Below are positions 1 to 58,524 of a DNA stretch of 64,000 bases, in pieces; position 1 is the stretch's first letter, and every line of letters starts with the position of its first letter. A program made the translations under genes and the position numbers. The stretch comes from Bacteroidia bacterium (GTDB lineage: Bacteria; Bacteroidota; Bacteroidia; SpSt-205). The notes below the pieces were generated by a model, which was given only the letters and a program-made list of their open reading frames with translations, did not search any database and was not told where the DNA came from. Location: NCBI GenBank assembly GCA_025059535.1, contig JANXCX010000019.1, positions 1 to 64,000 of the forward strand, given 5' to 3'.

Positions 1-200
1 CTTGCGTCGGCTGGGGGTTGCCTAAAGGGACGCTCTTACCGTCCCATTTCACCCTTACCCTGGAAAGGGCGGTATAATTTCTGTGGCCCTATCCGTCTGA
101 AGGCCTTGCGGCGCTTCAGCCTCTCCTTGCGGAGAGCAGCCTGCTCCCAGACGCCCGGACTTTCCTCTGGAGAAACCTCCAGCGCAGGAGCCCCCATCCC
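1..200 (-). ncRNA. rnpB: RNase P RNA (class A), 3' part outside window
   Basis: Catalytic RNA that cuts 5' leaders from pre-tRNAs. Read on the minus strand it has the 5' conserved core GAGGAAAGTCCGGGC (167-153) directly after a small hairpin with CTGGAG/CTCCAG arms (182-167, the P3 position), then ACAGAAATTATACCGCC (84-68) and GGTAAGGGTGAAA followed by the GACGGTAAGAGCGTC block (about 60-28). These are diagnostic of bacterial type A RNase P RNA. The gene runs off the left edge, so only about the first half is present. The 5' end is inferred: the preceding PorE-like gene stops at 201, so the RNA begins within a few bases of that stop codon, and I see no separate promoter between them. Confidence 0.95.
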
Positions 201-2198
201 CTACCGCTCGGCAAAATTTAGGTCCAAAATACGAAACTCGGCGCGCCGATTCGCCTGCTCGTCCGCATCCGACAGCTCAGGGTAAATAAGCGGCTGCGAC
301 TCCCCATACCCTATCCAAGACAAACGCTTAGGATTTATACCCTTTTTCGTAAGATACTCCACCACGGCTTTAGCCCGATTATTGGAAAGGCGAATGTTAT
401 ACTCTTCGCTTCCATTCGTATCCGTATGCGCACCAATGAGAATGCGCAGGCCTGGATTACGCTCCATAAGGAGGGCCAGCCGATCCAGCTCCGCCGCCGC
501 ATCCGGGCGGATCTCATACTTGTCAAAATCAAAATAGATGTTTTGAAGCACGACAGGCCGAGCAATCTCTATGCGATCCAAGAAAATGTCAATATCAGCT
601 TCTAAATCCATAGACTTTGTGGCGTCCTTCGTGGAGACCGAGACTTCATTGGCTAAATACTCGGGGGCATTTCCGATAAGCGTATAGTCTCGGCCGGCCT
701 GAAGGGTAAAGCGGTAGGTCGCACTTTGATCGGTATTGAAGGTGTCCAAGGGGATAAGCTTATCGCCCTGTACCTCGTACAGCGTAACGGTAGCAAACGG
801 GATGGGCAGCTTCGTACTCCCATCACGTACGGTACCATGTACGGCCAGCTCTATCTTCACCCGCGGAATGCGACGCACATAGTAGAGGTCATCCCGGCCT
901 TTTCCCCCCGGCCGATTAGAGGCCACGATTCCGAGGGAATCCTGCTTGATCCATATCAGCGAGAAATCATCATAAGAGGAATTGAGCGGTGGGCCTAGAT
1001 TTACGGGAGGCTCCCAGGTAGAAAATTGGCCTTGGGTCCGAAACACATCGTAGCCCCCTAGGCCCGGATGTCCATCGGAGGCAAAGTAAAGGGTTTTCCC
1101 ATCCTGACCTACGTAGGGGTAGATTTCGTTGAAAGGGGTATTGATGACCTTACCTGCGTGGACGGGCGCGCTCCACTCATTGCCTATCTTGCGGCTGTAC
1201 CAGATATCCGTACCGCCCATACCGCCTTCCCGGTCGGAAATAAAGTACATCACATTTCCATCAGGGGTAAGCGTAGGCTGCGCATCGTAAGTGGGCACCA
1301 GCTTCTTTTTCCCGCGAGAATTCACTACTATTTCCCGCTGACCAGAGAGTACTTCCATTTTTTCAAATGGTCCCCATTCGCGCTTCTGGGGATCAAAGGT
1401 GCTTTTGTAGATTCCACAGCCCCAGTACTTATGGGTAGTGCCTTGGCCGCAGATGGTATAGTACATCGTAAGGCCTCCTGGGGCGATTACGGCACTGCCA
1501 TCATTGGCGCGTGTGTTGATTTTGCGGCCGAGGTTTTGGGGGCCTGAGACGGAATCGCCCTTGATACGGGCTACCCACAGGTCAGAATAAGCGCTCTCCC
1601 CATATTCCCCAAACCTACCCGCACTCTGCCCGCCTGCCCTGTGACTGGTAAAAATGAGGAACGAATCGCCTTTGACTACGAAAAGGGCCGGCGCATACTC
1701 CGCTTCTTTGGTATTAGCGCCGCGCAGAAGTACCAGCTCGTAGTCCGGCTGCTGAGCTAAAAGCCTCTGGGCCAGCCGACACCCCTCCAGCTCAATTTCC
1801 CCCTGCTTGCGCAGGATATCCTTAGCCTTATGCCGCTCCAGAAACCGTTCCAAGGAAACTATAGCTTCGGCATACCGACCCACTTTCTTCTGGGCCATGC
1901 CTAAGTCTAAATATATGGTGTCATTGCTTAGGCTATCTATCGCCAGCGCCTTTTTATAGGCTTCTATAGCATTTTCAGTGTAGTTTGTGTACCAATAACA
2001 GCGTCCCAGGCGATAAGCCGCATAGAAATTCTGGGGGTCTTGGGAAAGTACTTGCTTGAAGAGCTCGGCTGCCCGTTCGGGGTTACGATTTACATAATAT
2101 TCCCGCTCAGCTTCGGCCAGTAGGGCGCGCACTTTAGCCGACTGGGCCCACAGAAAGCCCCCCAGCAGAAGAGCCCTCAGAATAGCTCCTCGTCCCAT
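201..2198 (-). CDS. PorE-like envelope protein (TPR, PD40 propeller, OmpA domain)
   Basis: 665 residues with the domain order of PorE, the peptidoglycan-binding partner of the T9SS ring: signal peptide (about 1-18, ending FLWA before Q), TPR helices (about 25-150), a PD40/WD40-like propeller (about 150-440, repeats such as YFISDREGGMGGTD and YFASDGHPGLGGYD), a carboxypeptidase-regulatory-like sandwich (about 455-535) and a C-terminal OmpA domain (about 545-660, with YFDFDKYEIRP and NRRAEFRI). It should sit in the periplasm or at the outer membrane and grip peptidoglycan. Known PorE is a lipoprotein; this one has no lipobox cysteine, so it may be a paralogous OmpA/PD40 protein. ATG at 2198 follows a TATATTTG box by 7 bases. 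The stop codon abuts rnpB. Confidence 0.85.
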   Translation of the reverse strand: MGRGAILRALLLGGFLWAQSAKVRALLAEAEREYYVNRNPERAAELFKQVLSQDPQNFYAAYRLGRCYWYTNYTENAIEAYKKALAIDSLSNDTIYLDLGMAQKKVGRYAEAIVSLERFLERHKAKDILRKQGEIELEGCRLAQRLLAQQPDYELVLLRGANTKEAEYAPALFVVKGDSFLIFTSHRAGGQSAGRFGEYGESAYSDLWVARIKGDSVSGPQNLGRKINTRANDGSAVIAPGGLTMYYTICGQGTTHKYWGCGIYKSTFDPQKREWGPFEKMEVLSGQREIVVNSRGKKKLVPTYDAQPTLTPDGNVMYFISDREGGMGGTDIWYSRKIGNEWSAPVHAGKVINTPFNEIYPYVGQDGKTLYFASDGHPGLGGYDVFRTQGQFSTWEPPVNLGPPLNSSYDDFSLIWIKQDSLGIVASNRPGGKGRDDLYYVRRIPRVKIELAVHGTVRDGSTKLPIPFATVTLYEVQGDKLIPLDTFNTDQSATYRFTLQAGRDYTLIGNAPEYLANEVSVSTKDATKSMDLEADIDIFLDRIEIARPVVLQNIYFDFDKYEIRPDAAAELDRLALLMERNPGLRILIGAHTDTNGSEEYNIRLSNNRAKAVVEYLTKKGINPKRLSWIGYGESQPLIYPELSDADEQANRRAEFRILDLNFAER

Positions 2199-16919: not shown

Positions 16920-17804
16920 ATGACCTGGAGTAGCCTCAGAACCTTCATCCTTTTAGCTACCCTCACCCTGCTACTGGTGGTAGTGGGAAAGGCAGTAGGT
17001 GGGGCTGCTGGCATGACCATAGCCCTGATTATAGCGGCTTTCATGAATCTAGGGGCGTATCTCTTTGGTCATAAGCTTATTCTCTGGCAATATCGGGCTC
17101 AACCGCTTCCGGAGCGAGAGTACGGTTGGCTTTATGAGATGACCCGGCGGTTAGCTCAGCGCGCTGGTCTACCGATGCCTAAGCTTTACCTGATTCCAGA
17201 GATGCAGCCGAATGCCTTTGCCACCGGGCCTTCACCAGCGCAAGGCATAGTAGCCTTTACGGCCGGCCTTCTCCAAACTATGACGCCTCAAGAAGTAGAG
17301 GGCGTCCTGGCGCACGAATTAGCCCACATCAAGAATCGGGATATGCTTACGATGACCGTAGCGGCTACCATCGTAGGCGCCATTACTTGGCTTGTGGATA
17401 TGCTGCGCTGGTCGGTCTTTTTCCGTAGTGCGCGCGATCGGGAGGAGGACAATGGGCTGGGGCTAATTGTGGCCATCGTAGTAGGGATTGTTGCCAGCCT
17501 CGCGGCTACCCTTATTCAGCTTGCCATATCTCGTACGCGCGAGTATGAGGCGGATCGGACGGCCGCTGAGCTGGTTGGTAGCCCAGATGGCCTAATTAGC
17601 GCCCTGAGCAAGTTAGATAGCTACACGCGGGCAGTGCCCATGGAGCAGGCTACTACCGCTACGGCCCATCTTTTTATTGCCAATCCTTTAGCGGGAGCTG
17701 GCGATTTTCTTTTGGAGCTTTTCAGTACCCACCCACCTATTCCGAAGCGGATAGCCCGACTAAGCCAGCTTCGCCAAAAGCGTGCTTCCTACCGACTTGC
17801 CTGA
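16920..17804 (+). CDS. htpX: Membrane zinc metalloprotease HtpX (M48B)
   Basis: Inner-membrane protease that removes damaged or misfolded membrane proteins. 294 residues: two N-terminal helices (about 5-50), the M48 zinc motif HELAH in VLAHELAHIKNRD (about 132-136), two further hydrophobic segments, and the third zinc ligand region TREYEADRTAAEL. All metal ligands are present. ATG 16920 is chosen because it fits the family start and follows a TATATTTG box by 4 bases; the frame opens earlier at 16839, which would put the start upstream of the promoter. The stop codon touches the 3' end of the SRP RNA on the other strand. Confidence 0.95.
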   Translation: MTWSSLRTFILLATLTLLLVVVGKAVGGAAGMTIALIIAAFMNLGAYLFGHKLILWQYRAQPLPEREYGWLYEMTRRLAQRAGLPMPKLYLIPEMQPNAFATGPSPAQGIVAFTAGLLQTMTPQEVEGVLAHELAHIKNRDMLTMTVAATIVGAITWLVDMLRWSVFFRSARDREEDNGLGLIVAIVVGIVASLAATLIQLAISRTREYEADRTAAELVGSPDGLISALSKLDSYTRAVPMEQATTATAHLFIANPLAGAGDFLLELFSTHPPIPKRIARLSQLRQKRASYRLA

Positions 17805-17895
17805 AAAGGCGGAGGAGCATCGCCCGCCTCGCTTCCGACCCTTGCTTCCTTTCGGACCTGGGGGATTGGGAAGGAGTACGTCGTGCCCTCCGCAC
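17804..17895 (-). ncRNA. ffs: Signal recognition particle RNA (4.5S-type)
   Basis: Small bacterial SRP RNA that works with Ffh in co-translational membrane targeting. On the minus strand it contains the domain IV hallmark AGGTCCGAAAGGAAGCA (within 17859-17838), and its ends pair: GCGGAGGGCA (17893-17884) with TGCTCCTCCGC (17819-17809, one bulged T). The 3' side ends in CCTTTT at 17804, consistent with termination. About 90 nt, the short form lacking an Alu domain. It is antisense to the transcription direction of htpX and the LytM-like gene and fills the gap between them. Exact 5' end inferred from the -7 box. Confidence 0.93.
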
Positions 17896-17897
17896 CC

Positions 17898-52086: not shown

Positions 52087-52094
52087 TATATTTG
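52087..52094 (+). promoter_or_regulatory. -7 box TATATTTG for tRNA-Phe
   Basis: Perfect TAnnTTTG ending 10 bases before the tRNA-Phe 5' end; the only promoter I see for tRNA-Phe and the phosphatase after it. Confidence 0.75.
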
Positions 52095-52104
52095 TGCTAG
52101 CGGT

Positions 52105-52177
52105 GGTGATGTAGCTCAGTAGGTAGAGCACCAGACTGAAAATCTGGGGGTCGGCGGTTCGATTCCGCCCGTCACCA
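52105..52177 (+). tRNA. tRNA-Phe (GAA)
   Basis: 73 nt; acceptor GGTGATG/CGTCACC (one T-G pair), D-stem GCTC/GAGC, anticodon loop CTGAAAA (GAA), T-arm GGCGG TTCGATT CCGCC, discriminator A. CCA not encoded. The following start codon is 3 bases away. Confidence 0.96.
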
Positions 52178-52180
52178 CAA

Positions 52181-53890
52181 GTGCGCTTACTGGGGCTGGG
52201 GGTAGGTGGGCTTGTAGCGGCGCAAGTAATAGTGGGAGGCGTTACTGAGCAAAGTGCCCGTCTCTTTATTTGGGATACCATAGCAGAAGTGGCTCTGGGT
52301 TCGGAGCCTCCTCAGCGCCACTACGCTCCCAGCCCCCCCCTCCGCTTAGAACTGGCCAATCTCAGGCCCTCCACACGCTACACCTATACCGTACGCCTCT
52401 CCCAGGGCGATTCGGTGCAAGGAGCCTTCTACACGCCTCCGCTTCAGCCTCTACGGGTGGCCTTTATTTCGTGTAATCAGCTTGGGCGTCAGAACAAGCG
52501 CCAGAAAGGCATATACCAGCAAATAGCCAAGGTCCAACCGCACCTAATCATCCATTTAGGCGACTGGGGCTACCCCGACACCACTGAACCCAACTTTCCC
52601 CCAGGCACGCGATTTTTCCCCTACCGCTGGGAAAATTTAGTTCAGCTCTATGCGGCGCGCTATAACGATCCTCACCTCCAGCCTCTTCTGCGGACAGCGG
52701 GATGGGCCTACCTATACGATGACCACGACTATGTGGCCGATAATACAGGCAAAAATTATCGCGCCCAGTACCGCACGCTGAGCCTCCCTGTAGGAGATTA
52801 TCCTTTTGATCCGCGCTACCGCCAGCATGCTATGGAGGCCTACCGGCAGTTTTTCCCCCATTATCCGCTTGCTGCACCCGAAGAGGCCCTCTTCCAGAGC
52901 TTTCGTTGGGGCGAGGTAGAGTTTTTCTTTTTAGATACGCGCAGTGCCCGCACAGGCACTATGCGCGCCTTTGAGCTAGGGGAGCTAGGTCGGTATTACT
53001 TTCGCCCGAAACCCGAAATCACGCTTTTGGGCAGCCAGCAGCGGGATTGGCTTTTAGAGGGGCTGCGCCGTAGCACGGCTAAATGGAAAATTATCCTCTC
53101 TGGCGTAACCTATAATCGCAATCTCCGTCTCTTTATTGAGCAGGCCCTTACCCTGCCTAATCAGGAGTTTCGTTACCTTGGCGGCCTTTATAGAATGCCG
53201 GCTATCTTCATAGCGGGCTATATAGCTGATAGTTGGGGCGGCTACCCGGCTGATCAGGATTCGCTCTTAGCTTGGTGCTGGCGGCATGGCATTCGCGGCG
53301 TTGTAATTATAAGCGGTGACACCCATGTAGCTACGATGGAGGATGGAACGATGGGCGGGTTTCCTGAGCTTATGACAGGAAGCATAGGTGAAGTTTATAA
53401 GAGAAGCTATAAGTTAGCTAAAAAGCTACGCATAGATATTTTCAATCGGGGTGGTCAAGGTCTTACCACAAAGGCCTTTCGTCCCGCCTTCGGCCTGGCC
53501 GAGTTTTATTCCGACTCGGCAAACTTTCAAATTATAGACGCCAAAGGGCAGGTAGTGGCGCGTATGACCTGTTATGCGCAGGATTTGCCTTTGCCTCCCG
53601 CGCTCTGGAGCCGGCTGACGGCGCCTAACGGTGGCCTTATTTTCTATTTAGAGCCTATTGGCCCCCGAAGCTACAAGCTCAAGTGGTACTTACCGGGCGA
53701 GCTACCCAGCCAATTAACTTTTTGCCTTTATAATGCCCAAGGTGAAAAGGTTTGGGAGGCTCCTACGCGTCCTGGTACTTATTGGCGGGCGCAGAAGGTC
53801 TTGGAGCTACCAGCCGTTCTGCCAGGCACCTATTTTTTGCGGGCTGAATCGGGCGGAAGCTATTATGGCCAGCGTCTGCATCTTCCTTGA
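52181..53890 (+). CDS. PhoD-like metallophosphatase with T9SS sorting domain
   Basis: 569 residues. Signal peptide (1-14, VAA before Q); a short fn3-like N-terminal domain (about 18-85); a PhoD/alkaline phosphatase D-type catalytic domain (about 90-430) with metal motifs HLGDWGYPD, YDDHDYVADN and SGDTHV; then a C-terminal beta domain of about 75 residues (about 495-569: LTFCLYNAQGEKVWEA, LPGTYFLRAESG, YGQRLHLP) resembling type A T9SS sorting domains. It should be secreted or bound at the cell surface and release phosphate from esters or lipids. GTG 52181 follows tRNA-Phe by 3 bases. Confidence 0.85.
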   Translation: MRLLGLGVGGLVAAQVIVGGVTEQSARLFIWDTIAEVALGSEPPQRHYAPSPPLRLELANLRPSTRYTYTVRLSQGDSVQGAFYTPPLQPLRVAFISCNQLGRQNKRQKGIYQQIAKVQPHLIIHLGDWGYPDTTEPNFPPGTRFFPYRWENLVQLYAARYNDPHLQPLLRTAGWAYLYDDHDYVADNTGKNYRAQYRTLSLPVGDYPFDPRYRQHAMEAYRQFFPHYPLAAPEEALFQSFRWGEVEFFFLDTRSARTGTMRAFELGELGRYYFRPKPEITLLGSQQRDWLLEGLRRSTAKWKIILSGVTYNRNLRLFIEQALTLPNQEFRYLGGLYRMPAIFIAGYIADSWGGYPADQDSLLAWCWRHGIRGVVIISGDTHVATMEDGTMGGFPELMTGSIGEVYKRSYKLAKKLRIDIFNRGGQGLTTKAFRPAFGLAEFYSDSANFQIIDAKGQVVARMTCYAQDLPLPPALWSRLTAPNGGLIFYLEPIGPRSYKLKWYLPGELPSQLTFCLYNAQGEKVWEAPTRPGTYWRAQKVLELPAVLPGTYFLRAESGGSYYGQRLHLP

Positions 53891-53896
53891 TTTGTG

Positions 53897-53904
53897 TATC
53901 TTTG
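53897..53904 (+). promoter_or_regulatory. -7 box TATCTTTG for rpsA
   Basis: Perfect TAnnTTTG ending 7 bases before ATG 53912. Confidence 0.75.
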
Positions 53905-53911
53905 CGGCCAC

Positions 53912-55627
53912 ATGAACCTTTCCGAAGCGGAACTGAAGCAGCTATACGAAGCCTACTCACCCCCACGCATTCAGCATGCCTTAGTCAAAGGGAAAATTAT
54001 AGCCGTAGACGAGCACGAGGTACTGGTTTCTATAGGGCATAAGGCGGAGGGACGCATCCCGCGCTCGGAATGGGGGCCCGATGAGCCACCGCCCACCGTG
54101 GGCCAAGAAATAGAGGTTTATGTAGAAAATTTAGAGGCTCGGCAAAGTGGCCTTAAGGTCTCGCGGCGCTTGGCCCACTCGCTGCGCACGTGGGAGCTTA
54201 TCAAAGAAGCCCTGCAAAACAATACCCCGATTGAAGGCGTGATTCGGCGGCGCACGAAAGGGGGATTTGTGGTAGATATTAGCGGCATAGAGGCTTTTCT
54301 TCCGGGGTCGCAGGTGGACCTCAAGCCCCTGCGCGCCTCCGACTCCTATGATGAGCTGCTGGGCAAACGCATGCGCTTCAAAGTCGTCAAAATAAACCCC
54401 GCTCAGTACAACGTGGTGGTATCGCATAAGGCCCTTCTGGAAGAAGAGCTGGCCCGCCAGAAAGAGCGCATCCTCAACGCCTTAGAGCGTGGCCAAATCT
54501 TAGAAGGCACCGTGAAGAATGTAGCGTCTTTTGGCATTTTTGTGGACCTTGGGGGCGTAATGGACGGTCTCGTGCATGTAACGGACCTTTCCTGGGGCCG
54601 CGTTTCACACCCCGAGGAGCTGTACAAGCCCGGGGACAAAGTGCGCGTGGTCGTATTAGATCACGACGCGGAGACCCGCCGCGTCACCCTAGGCATCAAG
54701 CAGCTTACCCCTAACCCTTGGGAAGTCTTACCCGAATGGCTCAAAGTCGGCGCAGTGGTAGAGGGCACCATTATAGCGATTGCCGACTACGGCCTGACGG
54801 TAGAGATTATACCAGGTATAGAAGGACTTATCCCCGTATTTGAGCTCTCTTGGTCCTCCATGCCTACTGATATCCAGAAGAATTACAAGGTAGGCAGCAA
54901 AATCCAGGCTAAAGTGATAGAACTCGACCCGGCCAGCCACCACCTTACCCTCAGCGTAAAGCAGCTTTCACCAGACCCTTGGACCCACGCGGCCGAGAAA
55001 TATCCCGTCGGCTCTACGCACAAAGGTATCGTCAAAAACTATACCGCTCTAGGCGCCTTTGTAGAACTGGAGCCGGGCGTGGAGGGCTTTATTAATGTGC
55101 GTGACCTTTCGTGGATTCGTCGCGTGCGGCATCCTTCCGAAATCCTTCAGCGCGGTCAAGAAATAGAGGTCGTTGTACTGGAGATAGACCCTTCTACGAA
55201 ACGGCTGCGTCTCGGTTATAAACAGCTCTCCGAGGATCCATGGGAAATGATTCGCACGGTGTTTGAGCCTGAGTCGGTCCATGAAGGCGTAATAGCCCGC
55301 ATCACCGAGGCTGGGGCCCAGGTAGAGCTGGCCTTCGGGGTGGAGGGCTTCTGTCCTACGCATTATCTGCGCAGCGCTACGGGCGAAATGCCTAAGGAAG
55401 GCGAAAGTCGGCTCTTCAAGGTCGTAGAACTGGATGAGCAAAACCGAACGATCATTCTAGCCCATCAGGCGGGCCCACGGGTAGCGCGTAAAGGCCGCAA
55501 GAAAGGGGAAGGTACCGCTGAACCTTCCGTAGAGCCGCGCACGCGCGCCGTAGCGCGCCAGAAACTGGGAGATCTGGAAGCGATCGCCCAGCTGCGCGCC
55601 CTTTTTGAAAACCAATCCGGTAACTAA
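53912..55627 (+). CDS. rpsA: 30S ribosomal protein S1
   Basis: 571 residues with six S1 (OB-fold) domains: KGKIIAVDEHEVLVSIGHKAEG (1), IEGVIRRRTKGGFVVDISG (2), LEGTVKNVASFGIFVDLGG (3), VEGTIIAIADYGLTVEI (4), HKGIVKNYTALGAFVELEPG (5), HEGVIARITEAGAQVELAFG (6). S1 helps ribosomes load mRNAs that lack strong Shine-Dalgarno sites, which fits a genome with hardly any leaders. Start ATG 53912; the frame opens at 53894 within the promoter. The TAA stop is one base from the tRNA-Val 5' end. Confidence 0.95.
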   Translation: MNLSEAELKQLYEAYSPPRIQHALVKGKIIAVDEHEVLVSIGHKAEGRIPRSEWGPDEPPPTVGQEIEVYVENLEARQSGLKVSRRLAHSLRTWELIKEALQNNTPIEGVIRRRTKGGFVVDISGIEAFLPGSQVDLKPLRASDSYDELLGKRMRFKVVKINPAQYNVVVSHKALLEEELARQKERILNALERGQILEGTVKNVASFGIFVDLGGVMDGLVHVTDLSWGRVSHPEELYKPGDKVRVVVLDHDAETRRVTLGIKQLTPNPWEVLPEWLKVGAVVEGTIIAIADYGLTVEIIPGIEGLIPVFELSWSSMPTDIQKNYKVGSKIQAKVIELDPASHHLTLSVKQLSPDPWTHAAEKYPVGSTHKGIVKNYTALGAFVELEPGVEGFINVRDLSWIRRVRHPSEILQRGQEIEVVVLEIDPSTKRLRLGYKQLSEDPWEMIRTVFEPESVHEGVIARITEAGAQVELAFGVEGFCPTHYLRSATGEMPKEGESRLFKVVELDEQNRTIILAHQAGPRVARKGRKKGEGTAEPSVEPRTRAVARQKLGDLEAIAQLRALFENQSGN

Positions 55628-55628
55628 A

Positions 55629-55703
55629 GGGCTGTTAGCTCAGTTGGTTTAGAGCGCTGCTTTGACAGGGCAGAGGTCGGAGGTTCGAATCCTCCACAGC
55701 CCA
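55629..55703 (+). tRNA. tRNA-Val (GAC)
   Basis: 75 nt; acceptor GGGCTGT/ACAGCCC, D-stem GCTC/GAGC, anticodon loop TTGACAG (GAC), T-arm GGAGG TTCGAAT CCTCC, discriminator A, no encoded CCA. One base after the rpsA stop and 4 bases before the next ATG; no promoter visible between rpsA and it. Confidence 0.96.
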
Positions 55704-55707
55704 CTTC

Positions 55708-56577
55708 ATGGCACCGCAGCGGTGCCTTTTCCTATTGGGATTTACCCTGCTTTATGCGCAATCACCCTTAGCACTGGCCGACTCTCTTTTTCACGCTGGC
55801 CAGTATCCCGAAGCCCTAAGCTCCTATCAGGCCTTAGCTTTCTCTAGTGAAATGCCTGATTCCACGCGGCTCAGGGCGCTGATAGGCTTAGCCCGCACTT
55901 ATCTTACGCTGCATCAGCCCCGTTCCGCTGCGCCCTGGCTAGCGCAGGCCGAGTCGTTAGCTTCTAGCCGCTTGGATACCCCCGCCCTGGCCAGCTGCCT
56001 TACACTGCGCGGCTTTGCGGCCTTTCTCCGTCAGCAGCTAAGTACAGCCGAGAGCCTTTTTACCTCCGTGCGGGCCTTAGGGTTTTCCAGAACGACTGAA
56101 AGCTATCTGAATGCCACGCTTTTCCTAGCCCGCCTGCGCCTTGCCCAAAGCGCCTTTGCTTCAGCTGAAATGCTCTTGGAAGAAGCCCTTACCCTGACCC
56201 AGGCACACGGCAACTTGAACCTATACGCCCAATCCTTATCCCTCCAGGCCCAACTCTGTCTCTTACGCGGCCAGTACCTTTTAGCAGAAAAGTACCTTCA
56301 AACCGCCCTAAGCCTTCCCACGCTTTCCAAGCCCACCCAACTCAACCTTCTAAATACGCTCGGTGCTGTCTATCTCCATCGGGGCGAGCTCCTTAGGGCT
56401 GAGGAGATATTCCAGCAACTCATCCAGACCATAGAAACGACTTGGCCCGCTCAACCCTCTCGCCTAGCGGCCTACTACAATATGGCGATTATCCTTGACC
56501 AGCAGGGCCGCTACGGCGAAGCCGAGAAGTATTACCGGAAAGCTCTGGCTCTCCTTCTCCAACAAGGCGATACCTAG
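55708..56577 (+). CDS. TPR protein, N-terminal part of an interrupted TPR-CHAT gene
   Basis: 289 residues to an in-frame TAG. Signal peptide (1-17, LLYA before Q), then TPR repeats (ADSLFHAGQYPEALSSYQAL; LYAQSLSLQAQLCLLRGQYL; LAAYYNMAIILDQQGRYGEA). The frame continues after the TAG (SPFYHQVRSGLAVLYRHQQRYAEAE) with another normal TPR, so this is the front of a single ancestral protein whose tail is the CHAT domain. The ATG is 4 bases after tRNA-Val. As sequenced it would give a secreted TPR protein without the CHAT part. Confidence 0.8.
   Translation: MAPQRCLFLLGFTLLYAQSPLALADSLFHAGQYPEALSSYQALAFSSEMPDSTRLRALIGLARTYLTLHQPRSAAPWLAQAESLASSRLDTPALASCLTLRGFAAFLRQQLSTAESLFTSVRALGFSRTTESYLNATLFLARLRLAQSAFASAEMLLEEALTLTQAHGNLNLYAQSLSLQAQLCLLRGQYLLAEKYLQTALSLPTLSKPTQLNLLNTLGAVYLHRGELLRAEEIFQQLIQTIETTWPAQPSRLAAYYNMAIILDQQGRYGEAEKYYRKALALLLQQGDT
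56575..56577 (+). other. In-frame TAG interrupting the TPR-CHAT gene
   Basis: The stop codon lies between two matching TPR segments in one reading frame, with no frame change before or after. Nonsense mutation, sequencing error or readthrough are possible. TAG is used as an ordinary stop by other genes here (PorE-like, DUF5683-type, TonB receptor). Confidence 0.75.
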
Positions 56578-56595
56578 AGCCCCTTTTACCATCAG

Positions 56596-58524
56596 GTGCG
56601 CAGCGGCTTAGCGGTGCTTTACCGCCATCAGCAGCGCTACGCCGAGGCCGAGTCGCTTTTAAAAGTGAGTGCGGCCTACTTCCTCGCTACGCAGGGCGCA
56701 AAAAGCCTAGCCTATCTCACCGCCCTACACAACTTAGCCATACTGTATGACGCAAAGGGCGCCAGTACCGAGGCTAAAGCGCTCTATGAAGAAACCCTTG
56801 CCCAGCGCCGCACCGTTCTAGGCGAAACGCACCCCGAGTATCTCAGTACCCTTCTAAATTTCAGTCTATTTTTGACCGACATAAAAGCCTATGCCCAGGC
56901 AGAAAGCCTTCTTACTTCCCTGTGTGCTACCCTCTCGGCTCTCTCGCCTACTCCCTACTGGCTTTTAGATAAGGCCTACTTCAACTTGGCTGTGCTTTAT
57001 AGCAAGCAGGAGGCCCACGTCCGCGCCGACTCCCTCTGGCCTTTAGTCCTAACCCGCGCCTTTGAACGGCTGCGAAAAGAATTTCTTCCTTTACCGCTCT
57101 ACGCCCGCCAGCAATTTTTGGAAAATGTATTAGAAGAAATTTTTTTCCACTTTCAGGCACAGCTGAGTCGTCGGGAAACTTTGCCGCCGGCCATATTAGA
57201 GCTGGGCTATCGGGCCGCTCGTAGTTTCAAGGGTATTCTCCTTACCTCCACGGAAGGCATGCGCTATCTGCTAGAGACCCGTCGTGATACCACGCTTCTA
57301 AAAGCCTATCAGACCTGGAAAGCCCTCCATGAGAGCCGCTTTTTCCTTCTTACTCAGGGGCGCTACGAAGAGGCTGACTCGCTTAGGGAACAGGTGGAGC
57401 GGCTTGAAAGCACGCTGCTGCGCCAGCTGCCAGATTTGGCTTCGTTTCTCCCTGATATGGCTAAAGAACCGCTCTTTCCCCCTCTGCGCTCGGGAGAAGC
57501 GGCCATAGAAGTAGTTCGGATCCCCTTTGATACGGTGGTAGCCTATGTGCATTATCTGCTAGTGCGCGAGGGGCGCCGAAAAGCCCTCAAACGCTGGGTA
57601 CGATGGCTTACCCCTCAGCAGGAGACTACCCTTGAGCAAATTTTTGAGCTCTACCGCACCTTGGGCAGTCCACCCTCCGAACGCCCCTACGAACTCCTTT
57701 GGGCACCTATAGAAAAGCTCCTTCCTAAGCGCCTCCGTAAGCTCTATTTCGCTCCCGATGGGCTGTACTACAAGGTGAATGTGGCTTGCCTTTATGATAG
57801 CCGAGCGCGAGCCTTTGTAGGCGATAAGTATCTTGTTCAGTATGTGGCTACTACTCGCCGCCTGCTTCGGCCGAAGCCTCGCCTCGCTTCTGCGAAACCG
57901 CTGGTTCTAGGCAATCCCGCTTTTGCCACGAAAGGGGAAGGCAGAAATAGGCGTTTGCAGGAAATCTTAGGCGAAGTACCCGCCTTGCCAGCGGCGGAGA
58001 CTGAGGTCCGACTCATTGCAAACCTTCTAGGCGTTACGCCGCTGATTGGGCCTGCGGCTACGGAAGAGGTGGTCAAAAAAGCCAAACATCCCGCTATCCT
58101 TCACCTAGCCACGCATGGCTACTTTATACCGATTGGGGAAAAGGGGCAGGCAGGGCTTCTACTAGCCCCAAGCCCCGGAGAAGATGGGTATCTTACGACC
58201 GAAGAGGCTTCCCTCCTGGCTCTGCAAGGTACTCACCTAGTGGTGCTTTCCGCCTGTGAGACCGCCTTGGGCATTGTTAAGGGAGAGGGGCTTTATGGGC
58301 TTCAGCGTGCGTTCCTAGAGGCGGGAGCGCAGCAGGTGATTGCCACCCTATGGCCCGTGGAAGATGCCGCTACGCAGGCTCTTATGACGGCGCTTTATAG
58401 GCGGCTTGGGCGCTTGCCTGGGCGCTGGAAACATGCCACCACTATCCTACACCGCACCCTACGCCACTTCCGTCAGCAGTATCCTCACCCCTACCACTGG
58501 GGCGCTTTCGTATGCATGCAGTAG
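56596..58524 (+). CDS. CHAT-domain protein, C-terminal part of the interrupted TPR-CHAT gene
   Basis: 642 residues from a GTG at 56596 (true restart uncertain; the open frame begins right after the TAG at 56577). TPR repeats (1 to about 130), a helical linker (about 130-290) and a CHAT caspase-like protease domain (about 290-640) with the catalytic His in ILHLATHGYF and Cys in VVLSACETALG, and the typical RAFLEAGAQQVIATLWPVED segment. No signal peptide of its own, so if expressed alone it stays in the cytoplasm. CHAT proteases often cut partner proteins in defence or signalling; no partner is visible. Confidence 0.8.
   Translation: MRSGLAVLYRHQQRYAEAESLLKVSAAYFLATQGAKSLAYLTALHNLAILYDAKGASTEAKALYEETLAQRRTVLGETHPEYLSTLLNFSLFLTDIKAYAQAESLLTSLCATLSALSPTPYWLLDKAYFNLAVLYSKQEAHVRADSLWPLVLTRAFERLRKEFLPLPLYARQQFLENVLEEIFFHFQAQLSRRETLPPAILELGYRAARSFKGILLTSTEGMRYLLETRRDTTLLKAYQTWKALHESRFFLLTQGRYEEADSLREQVERLESTLLRQLPDLASFLPDMAKEPLFPPLRSGEAAIEVVRIPFDTVVAYVHYLLVREGRRKALKRWVRWLTPQQETTLEQIFELYRTLGSPPSERPYELLWAPIEKLLPKRLRKLYFAPDGLYYKVNVACLYDSRARAFVGDKYLVQYVATTRRLLRPKPRLASAKPLVLGNPAFATKGEGRNRRLQEILGEVPALPAAETEVRLIANLLGVTPLIGPAATEEVVKKAKHPAILHLATHGYFIPIGEKGQAGLLLAPSPGEDGYLTTEEASLLALQGTHLVVLSACETALGIVKGEGLYGLQRAFLEAGAQQVIATLWPVEDAATQALMTALYRRLGRLPGRWKHATTILHRTLRHFRQQYPHPYHWGAFVCMQ

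Follow-up and report, generated by a model that had tools for sequence, protein, structure and literature searches.

In Escherichia coli, the secG-leuU transcript, whose description is attributed to Mohanty and Kushner in 2008, reportedly joins a protein gene, a tRNA, and a Rho-independent terminator in a single RNA that is processed by RNase P. The rpsA–tRNA-Val locus described here shows the same succession of protein gene, tRNA, and terminator, with both genes on one strand and with neither a promoter nor a terminator found between them, and we infer an RNase P step here as well. It differs in that the protein gene is rpsA (rplQ in a parallel case), the spacer measures 1 nt in this genome, the tRNA is the sole copy of its kind, and its CCA end is not encoded. 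A layout of coding sequence, tRNA, and terminator is as such already known. The joint between rpsA and tRNA-Val to which a previous sequence-only reading of this DNA pointed is real and recurs in 11 of 11 genomes of the genus.

A further comparison is with the punctuation of mitochondrial transcripts by tRNAs, which is said to have been set out by Ojala and co-workers in 1981. In both cases, tRNAs abut protein genes, their excision would set the ends of mRNAs, and the mRNAs are, or are predicted to be, leaderless or nearly so. In contrast to mitochondria, only part of the tRNAs in this genus are involved, most of them keep a promoter of their own, and the arrangement is known here from sequence alone. 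Bacterial protein operons led by a tRNA, such as thrU-tufB, metY-nusA, and tRNA-Trp-secE, likewise place a tRNA on one transcript with translation or secretion genes, but there the tRNA leads, whereas here it trails rpsA or rplQ. We know of no genome with such tRNA-led operons in which tight joints of 1 to 5 nt between a tRNA and a start codon occur at ten conserved loci.

Order and conservation of the rpsA–tRNA-Val joint

The locus lies in a window of 64 kb, which is the whole stretch of DNA that was analyzed. The coordinates of the joint agree across the sequence itself, ARAGORN, and Rfam, so that the previously proposed order of rpsA stop codon, one base, tRNA-Val, CTTC, and ATG is correct. 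The features are as follows.

53897–53904, plus strand: −7 element of the rpsA promoter, TATCTTTG, with a predicted transcription start 2–3 nt before the ATG
53912–55627, plus strand: rpsA, ribosomal protein S1, 571 aa, with stop codon TAA at 55625–55627 and the Pfam S1 domain in six stretches
55628, plus strand: single base A55628 that separates the tRNA from the rpsA stop codon, read from the sequence
55629–55703, plus strand: tRNA-Val(GAC), single copy, without encoded CCA and without a promoter element of its own, discriminator A55703
55704–55707, plus strand: spacer CTTC, read from the sequence and followed by the ATG (55708–55710) of the TPR-CHAT open reading frame
55710–55730, plus strand: intrinsic terminator GGCACCGCAGCGGTGCC-TTTT, with a 7-bp stem (55710–55726) and the 3-nt loop CAG

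A 1-nt gap is by itself ordinary, as many co-directional coding sequences in the window are separated by −4 to +13 nt, and in a genome of such compactness it is unremarkable. The order of the two genes on the same strand is, by contrast, kept in all 11 genus genomes, that is, in this one and in ten relatives, which include hot-spring Bacteroidia MAGs such as KatS3mg025 and KatS3mg026; S1 protein identity among members of the genus is 75–83%. The gaps in the 11 genomes are 1, 18, 10, 10, 10, 15, 2, 6, 2, 2, and 13 nt, and the 1-nt distance was accordingly rejected as a conserved feature. At 19 loci from outside the genus, no tRNA was found beside rpsA within the flanks examined, which for the order-level relative G012 extend only ~650 nt downstream of rpsA; in that relative, tRNA-Val(GAC) sits elsewhere, behind a promoter of its own. 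With 11 of 11 occurrences in the genus versus 0 of 19 outside it, the order is, on this sequence comparison, beyond chance.

Promoter elements and a probable joint transcript

Promoters of Bacteroidota carry the element TAnnTTTG, and transcription begins 4–5 nt past it (PMC6847099). We searched for this element, a search to which promoters of other sigma factors are invisible, and dropped a scan for sigma-70 promoters, which are the wrong type for Bacteroidota. In all 11 genus genomes, rpsA is preceded by TAnnTTTG ~7 nt upstream of its ATG. Ahead of tRNA-Val(GAC), no TAnnTTTG was found within 40 nt in four genomes (G000, G005, G010, and G002), even with one mismatch allowed; an exact element adjoining this tRNA is absent in 9 of the 11 genus genomes, and a candidate promoter for the tRNA within rpsA was sought and not found. 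Across the same four genomes, in tRNA contexts gathered locus by locus and not from one whole-genome sequence, an exact TAnnTTTG stands ahead of 28–31 tRNAs per genome, ending 0–15 nt upstream with a mode of 7–9 nt. Those tRNAs that sit inside clusters are without the element, and nearly all others that lead a unit have one, as exemplified by the usual arrangement in this genome.

52087–52094, plus strand: −7 element of the tRNA-Phe promoter, TATATTTG

In the relative G010, additional copies of tRNA-Phe that lack a promoter element lie upstream of the rpsA region (loci L143 and L166).

Because rpsA is separated from the tRNA by neither a terminator nor a promoter element in this genome, the tRNA most likely derives from the rpsA transcript. 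We consider it likely that rpsA and tRNA-Val(GAC) belong to a single transcription unit, running from promoter through rpsA and tRNA-Val to terminator, with RNase P setting the 3′ end of the mRNA; on this point, the layout backs what the sequence-only reading had proposed, and this genome shows no sign of the intervening terminator or promoter that would have refuted it. RNA polymerase would start 2–3 nt ahead of the rpsA ATG, transcribe rpsA and tRNA-Val, and halt at the terminator, 7 nt further on. The tRNA would then probably be excised from the rpsA mRNA, with RNase P cutting at 55628/55629 and leaving an mRNA that ends one base past its stop codon, and with the 3′ end of the tRNA formed by RNase Z or by trimming from the terminator side before CCA is added. 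Encoded are an RNase P RNA (Rfam), RnpA, a protein of the CCA-adding/poly(A)-polymerase family, and an RNase Z homolog whose score lies below the curated cut-off. The RNase P RNA gene (1–201, minus strand, Rfam) is cut by the window edge, and a small SRP RNA (17803–17896, minus strand) barely reaches its Rfam threshold (40.2 versus 40 bits).

The tRNA in question is the sole reader of GUU and GUC, is present as a single copy in the four genomes examined, and serves codons accounting for 26% of those for valine in the window. This only GUU/GUC-reading tRNA would thereby be supplied in step with ribosomal protein S1, and co-transcription, if true, would tie the supply of an essential tRNA to S1 expression.

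Alternatively, tRNA-Val could use a promoter of its own, of an unrecognized kind and located inside the end of rpsA, the adjacency then being mere genome compaction. The tiny gaps between co-directional genes that are general in the window would fit this reading, as would the promoter elements found in the rpsA/tRNA-Val gap of G004 (TAACTTTG) and G001 (TAAATTTG, which incorporates the stop codon) and before the separately located tRNA-Val(GAC) of G012. However, nearly all other unit-leading tRNAs carry the standard element a few bases upstream, and the order of rpsA and tRNA-Val is kept throughout the genus, so that we regard a hidden promoter as unlikely. The elements in G004 and G001 do indicate that any reliance of tRNA-Val on rpsA is not universal in the genus; in the rpsA tree, in which the root of the genus is not fixed, they may be ancestral or regained.

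A second joint of this kind is found behind rplQ (bL17), which is followed by tRNA-Thr(UGU) in four of four genomes examined.

L008:1086–1573: rplQ (L17) stop codon, one base, and a promoterless tRNA-Thr(UGU)

Here, the gap is 1 nt in G000 and 3 nt in G010, both without a promoter, and 23 nt in G005 and 26 nt in G002, both with one. When the rpsA and rplQ pairs are pooled, no promoter is present at gaps of up to ~10 nt (10 cases) and one is present in four of five wider gaps, a correlation that is partly simple geometry because the 8-base element needs room.

It is also conceivable that the rpsA joint acts as a regulatory device, in which tRNA maturation, or ribosomes terminating one base ahead of the tRNA, would control the stability of the S1 mRNA or the yield of the tRNA, in line with the link to tRNA maturation that the sequence-only reading had suggested. 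A ribosome positioned on the rpsA stop codon would occlude the 5′ strand of the acceptor stem, and an rpsA mRNA generated by RNase P would be without a protective 3′ hairpin of its own. Against such a device, which we judge improbable, the spacing ranges from 1 to 18 nt across the genus, and no common structure is apparent in single-sequence folds of the last 80 nt of rpsA.

The terminator and the TPR-CHAT frame

The terminator begins 7 nt past tRNA-Val, on the G of the ATG that opens the next frame, which contains TPR plus CHAT (Pfam) and falls into two parts.

55708–56577, plus strand: TPR part of the TPR-CHAT frame, stopped by an in-frame TAG (56575–56577) after 289 codons, outside the conserved unit
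56578–58524, plus strand: remainder of the frame with the CHAT domain, in the same reading frame past the TAG

Counting both strands, the window holds two sites in all that are as strong as this terminator; the fold of the 37-nt piece at this site has −14.8 kcal/mol (z −2.8). A similar Rho-independent terminator stands directly behind tRNA-Val in G001; in the remaining nine genus genomes, the scan turned up no such site shortly past the tRNA. The suggestion that the tRNA itself serves as terminator does not hold, since it has replaced no terminator: one follows it.

The same reading had proposed that 3′ cleavage of the tRNA would free the next mRNA. As the G of the CHAT ATG already belongs to the terminator stem, transcription is expected to stop at this point, the ATG would be partly buried, and release of a downstream mRNA by tRNA 3′ cleavage is thus unlikely at the tRNA-Val joint. 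TPR-CHAT as a third cistron would be in keeping with the ten other tRNAs that directly precede start codons in each of the four genomes compared, and the first residues of the frame (MAPQRCLFLLGFTLLYAQ) resemble signal peptides of the genus as judged by eye. Nevertheless, the frame is interrupted by the in-frame TAG, which may mark a pseudogene or a sequencing error, and the gene downstream of tRNA-Val varies among species, with CHAT missing from this neighborhood in 10 of 10 relatives. The joint between tRNA-Val and CHAT is hence specific to one genome and blocked by the terminator, and we rejected the third cistron as very unlikely.

tRNA–start-codon joints and predicted leaderless mRNAs

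A start codon placed directly behind a tRNA, as in mitochondrial punctuation, occurs genus-wide: among the tRNAs with no further tRNA behind them, 11–14 in each of the four genomes are followed by a start codon no more than 5 nt past the discriminator. Ten such pairs are common to all four.

52105–52177, plus strand: tRNA-Phe, an example joint, with the GTG start codon of a PhoD-like gene at 52181 after a 3-nt gap
52087–52183 and loci L018, L106, L110, L022, L005, L016, L101, L012, and L030: tRNAs followed by a protein start codon within 1–5 nt

The conserved pairs are Val-CAC/dxr, Ser-UGA/fbp, Gln/prs, Arg-UCG/rplY, Trp/secE (at 2–3 nt in the genus), Met/OsmC-like, Leu-UAG/trigger-factor-like, Phe/PhoD-like, Thr-CGU/lipoprotein-like (by its first residues), and Leu-UAA/a small open reading frame without a family match. 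For dxr, fbp, prs, and rplY, the match to the family profile sets in at the first residues, which makes those start codons firm, and the codon itself varies (ATG, GTG, or TTG) at a held position, most clearly behind tRNA-Met. Tight gaps between tRNA and start codon are also present in the family relative G011, while the class relative G028 has no such gap under 12 nt and none of the ten pairs.

Across the window, TAnnTTTG usually ends 4–7 nt ahead of the start codon (53897–53914 and other promoter-bearing open reading frames), and in the genus, promoter-to-start distances peak at exactly 4 nt, with 14 of 51, 8 of 29, 11 of 27, and 7 of 27 promoter–ORF pairs at this distance. In G028, such short distances account for a smaller fraction, with few cases to count. 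Given that transcription is expected to begin 4–5 nt past the element, this peak predicts leaderless mRNAs, which would be the common form in the genus, and leaderless initiation would explain why start codons can abut tRNAs. The joint of rpsA and tRNA-Val would then be one case of a genus-wide packing of tRNAs against apparently leaderless protein genes. The prediction contrasts with the Bacteroidota studied so far, in which leaders are the rule: in F. johnsoniae, 87% of leaders are longer than 10 nt (PMC6847099), and in B. thetaiotaomicron, about 3.7% of 5′ UTRs are under 10 nt (PMC7366714).

Full punctuation of the mitochondrial type, with long common precursors and promoterless tRNAs, was rejected, as most unit-leading tRNAs keep their TAnnTTTG promoters. 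We tentatively propose, as a reading that falls slightly short of an even chance, that the lineage runs a partial form of it, in which transcription from promoters begins directly at tRNAs or start codons, cleavage at tRNA 3′ ends yields leaderless mRNAs of housekeeping genes (among them dxr, fbp, prs, rplY, and secE), and 5′ cleavage sets the 3′ ends of the rpsA and rplQ mRNAs. The literature on leaderless mRNAs, tRNA punctuation, and RNase Z, in a selection that covers subscription journals thinly and is thus weak evidence of novelty, yielded no report of bacterial leaderless mRNAs made by tRNA 3′ processing. If true, the genus would offer a bacterial test case of how leaderless translation allows mRNA ends to be set by tRNA processing, an arrangement familiar above all from mitochondria.

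In 42 of the 43 tRNAs of this genome, a C directly follows the discriminator even though CCA is generally not encoded; this single retained C perhaps serves recognition by RNase P or RNase Z.
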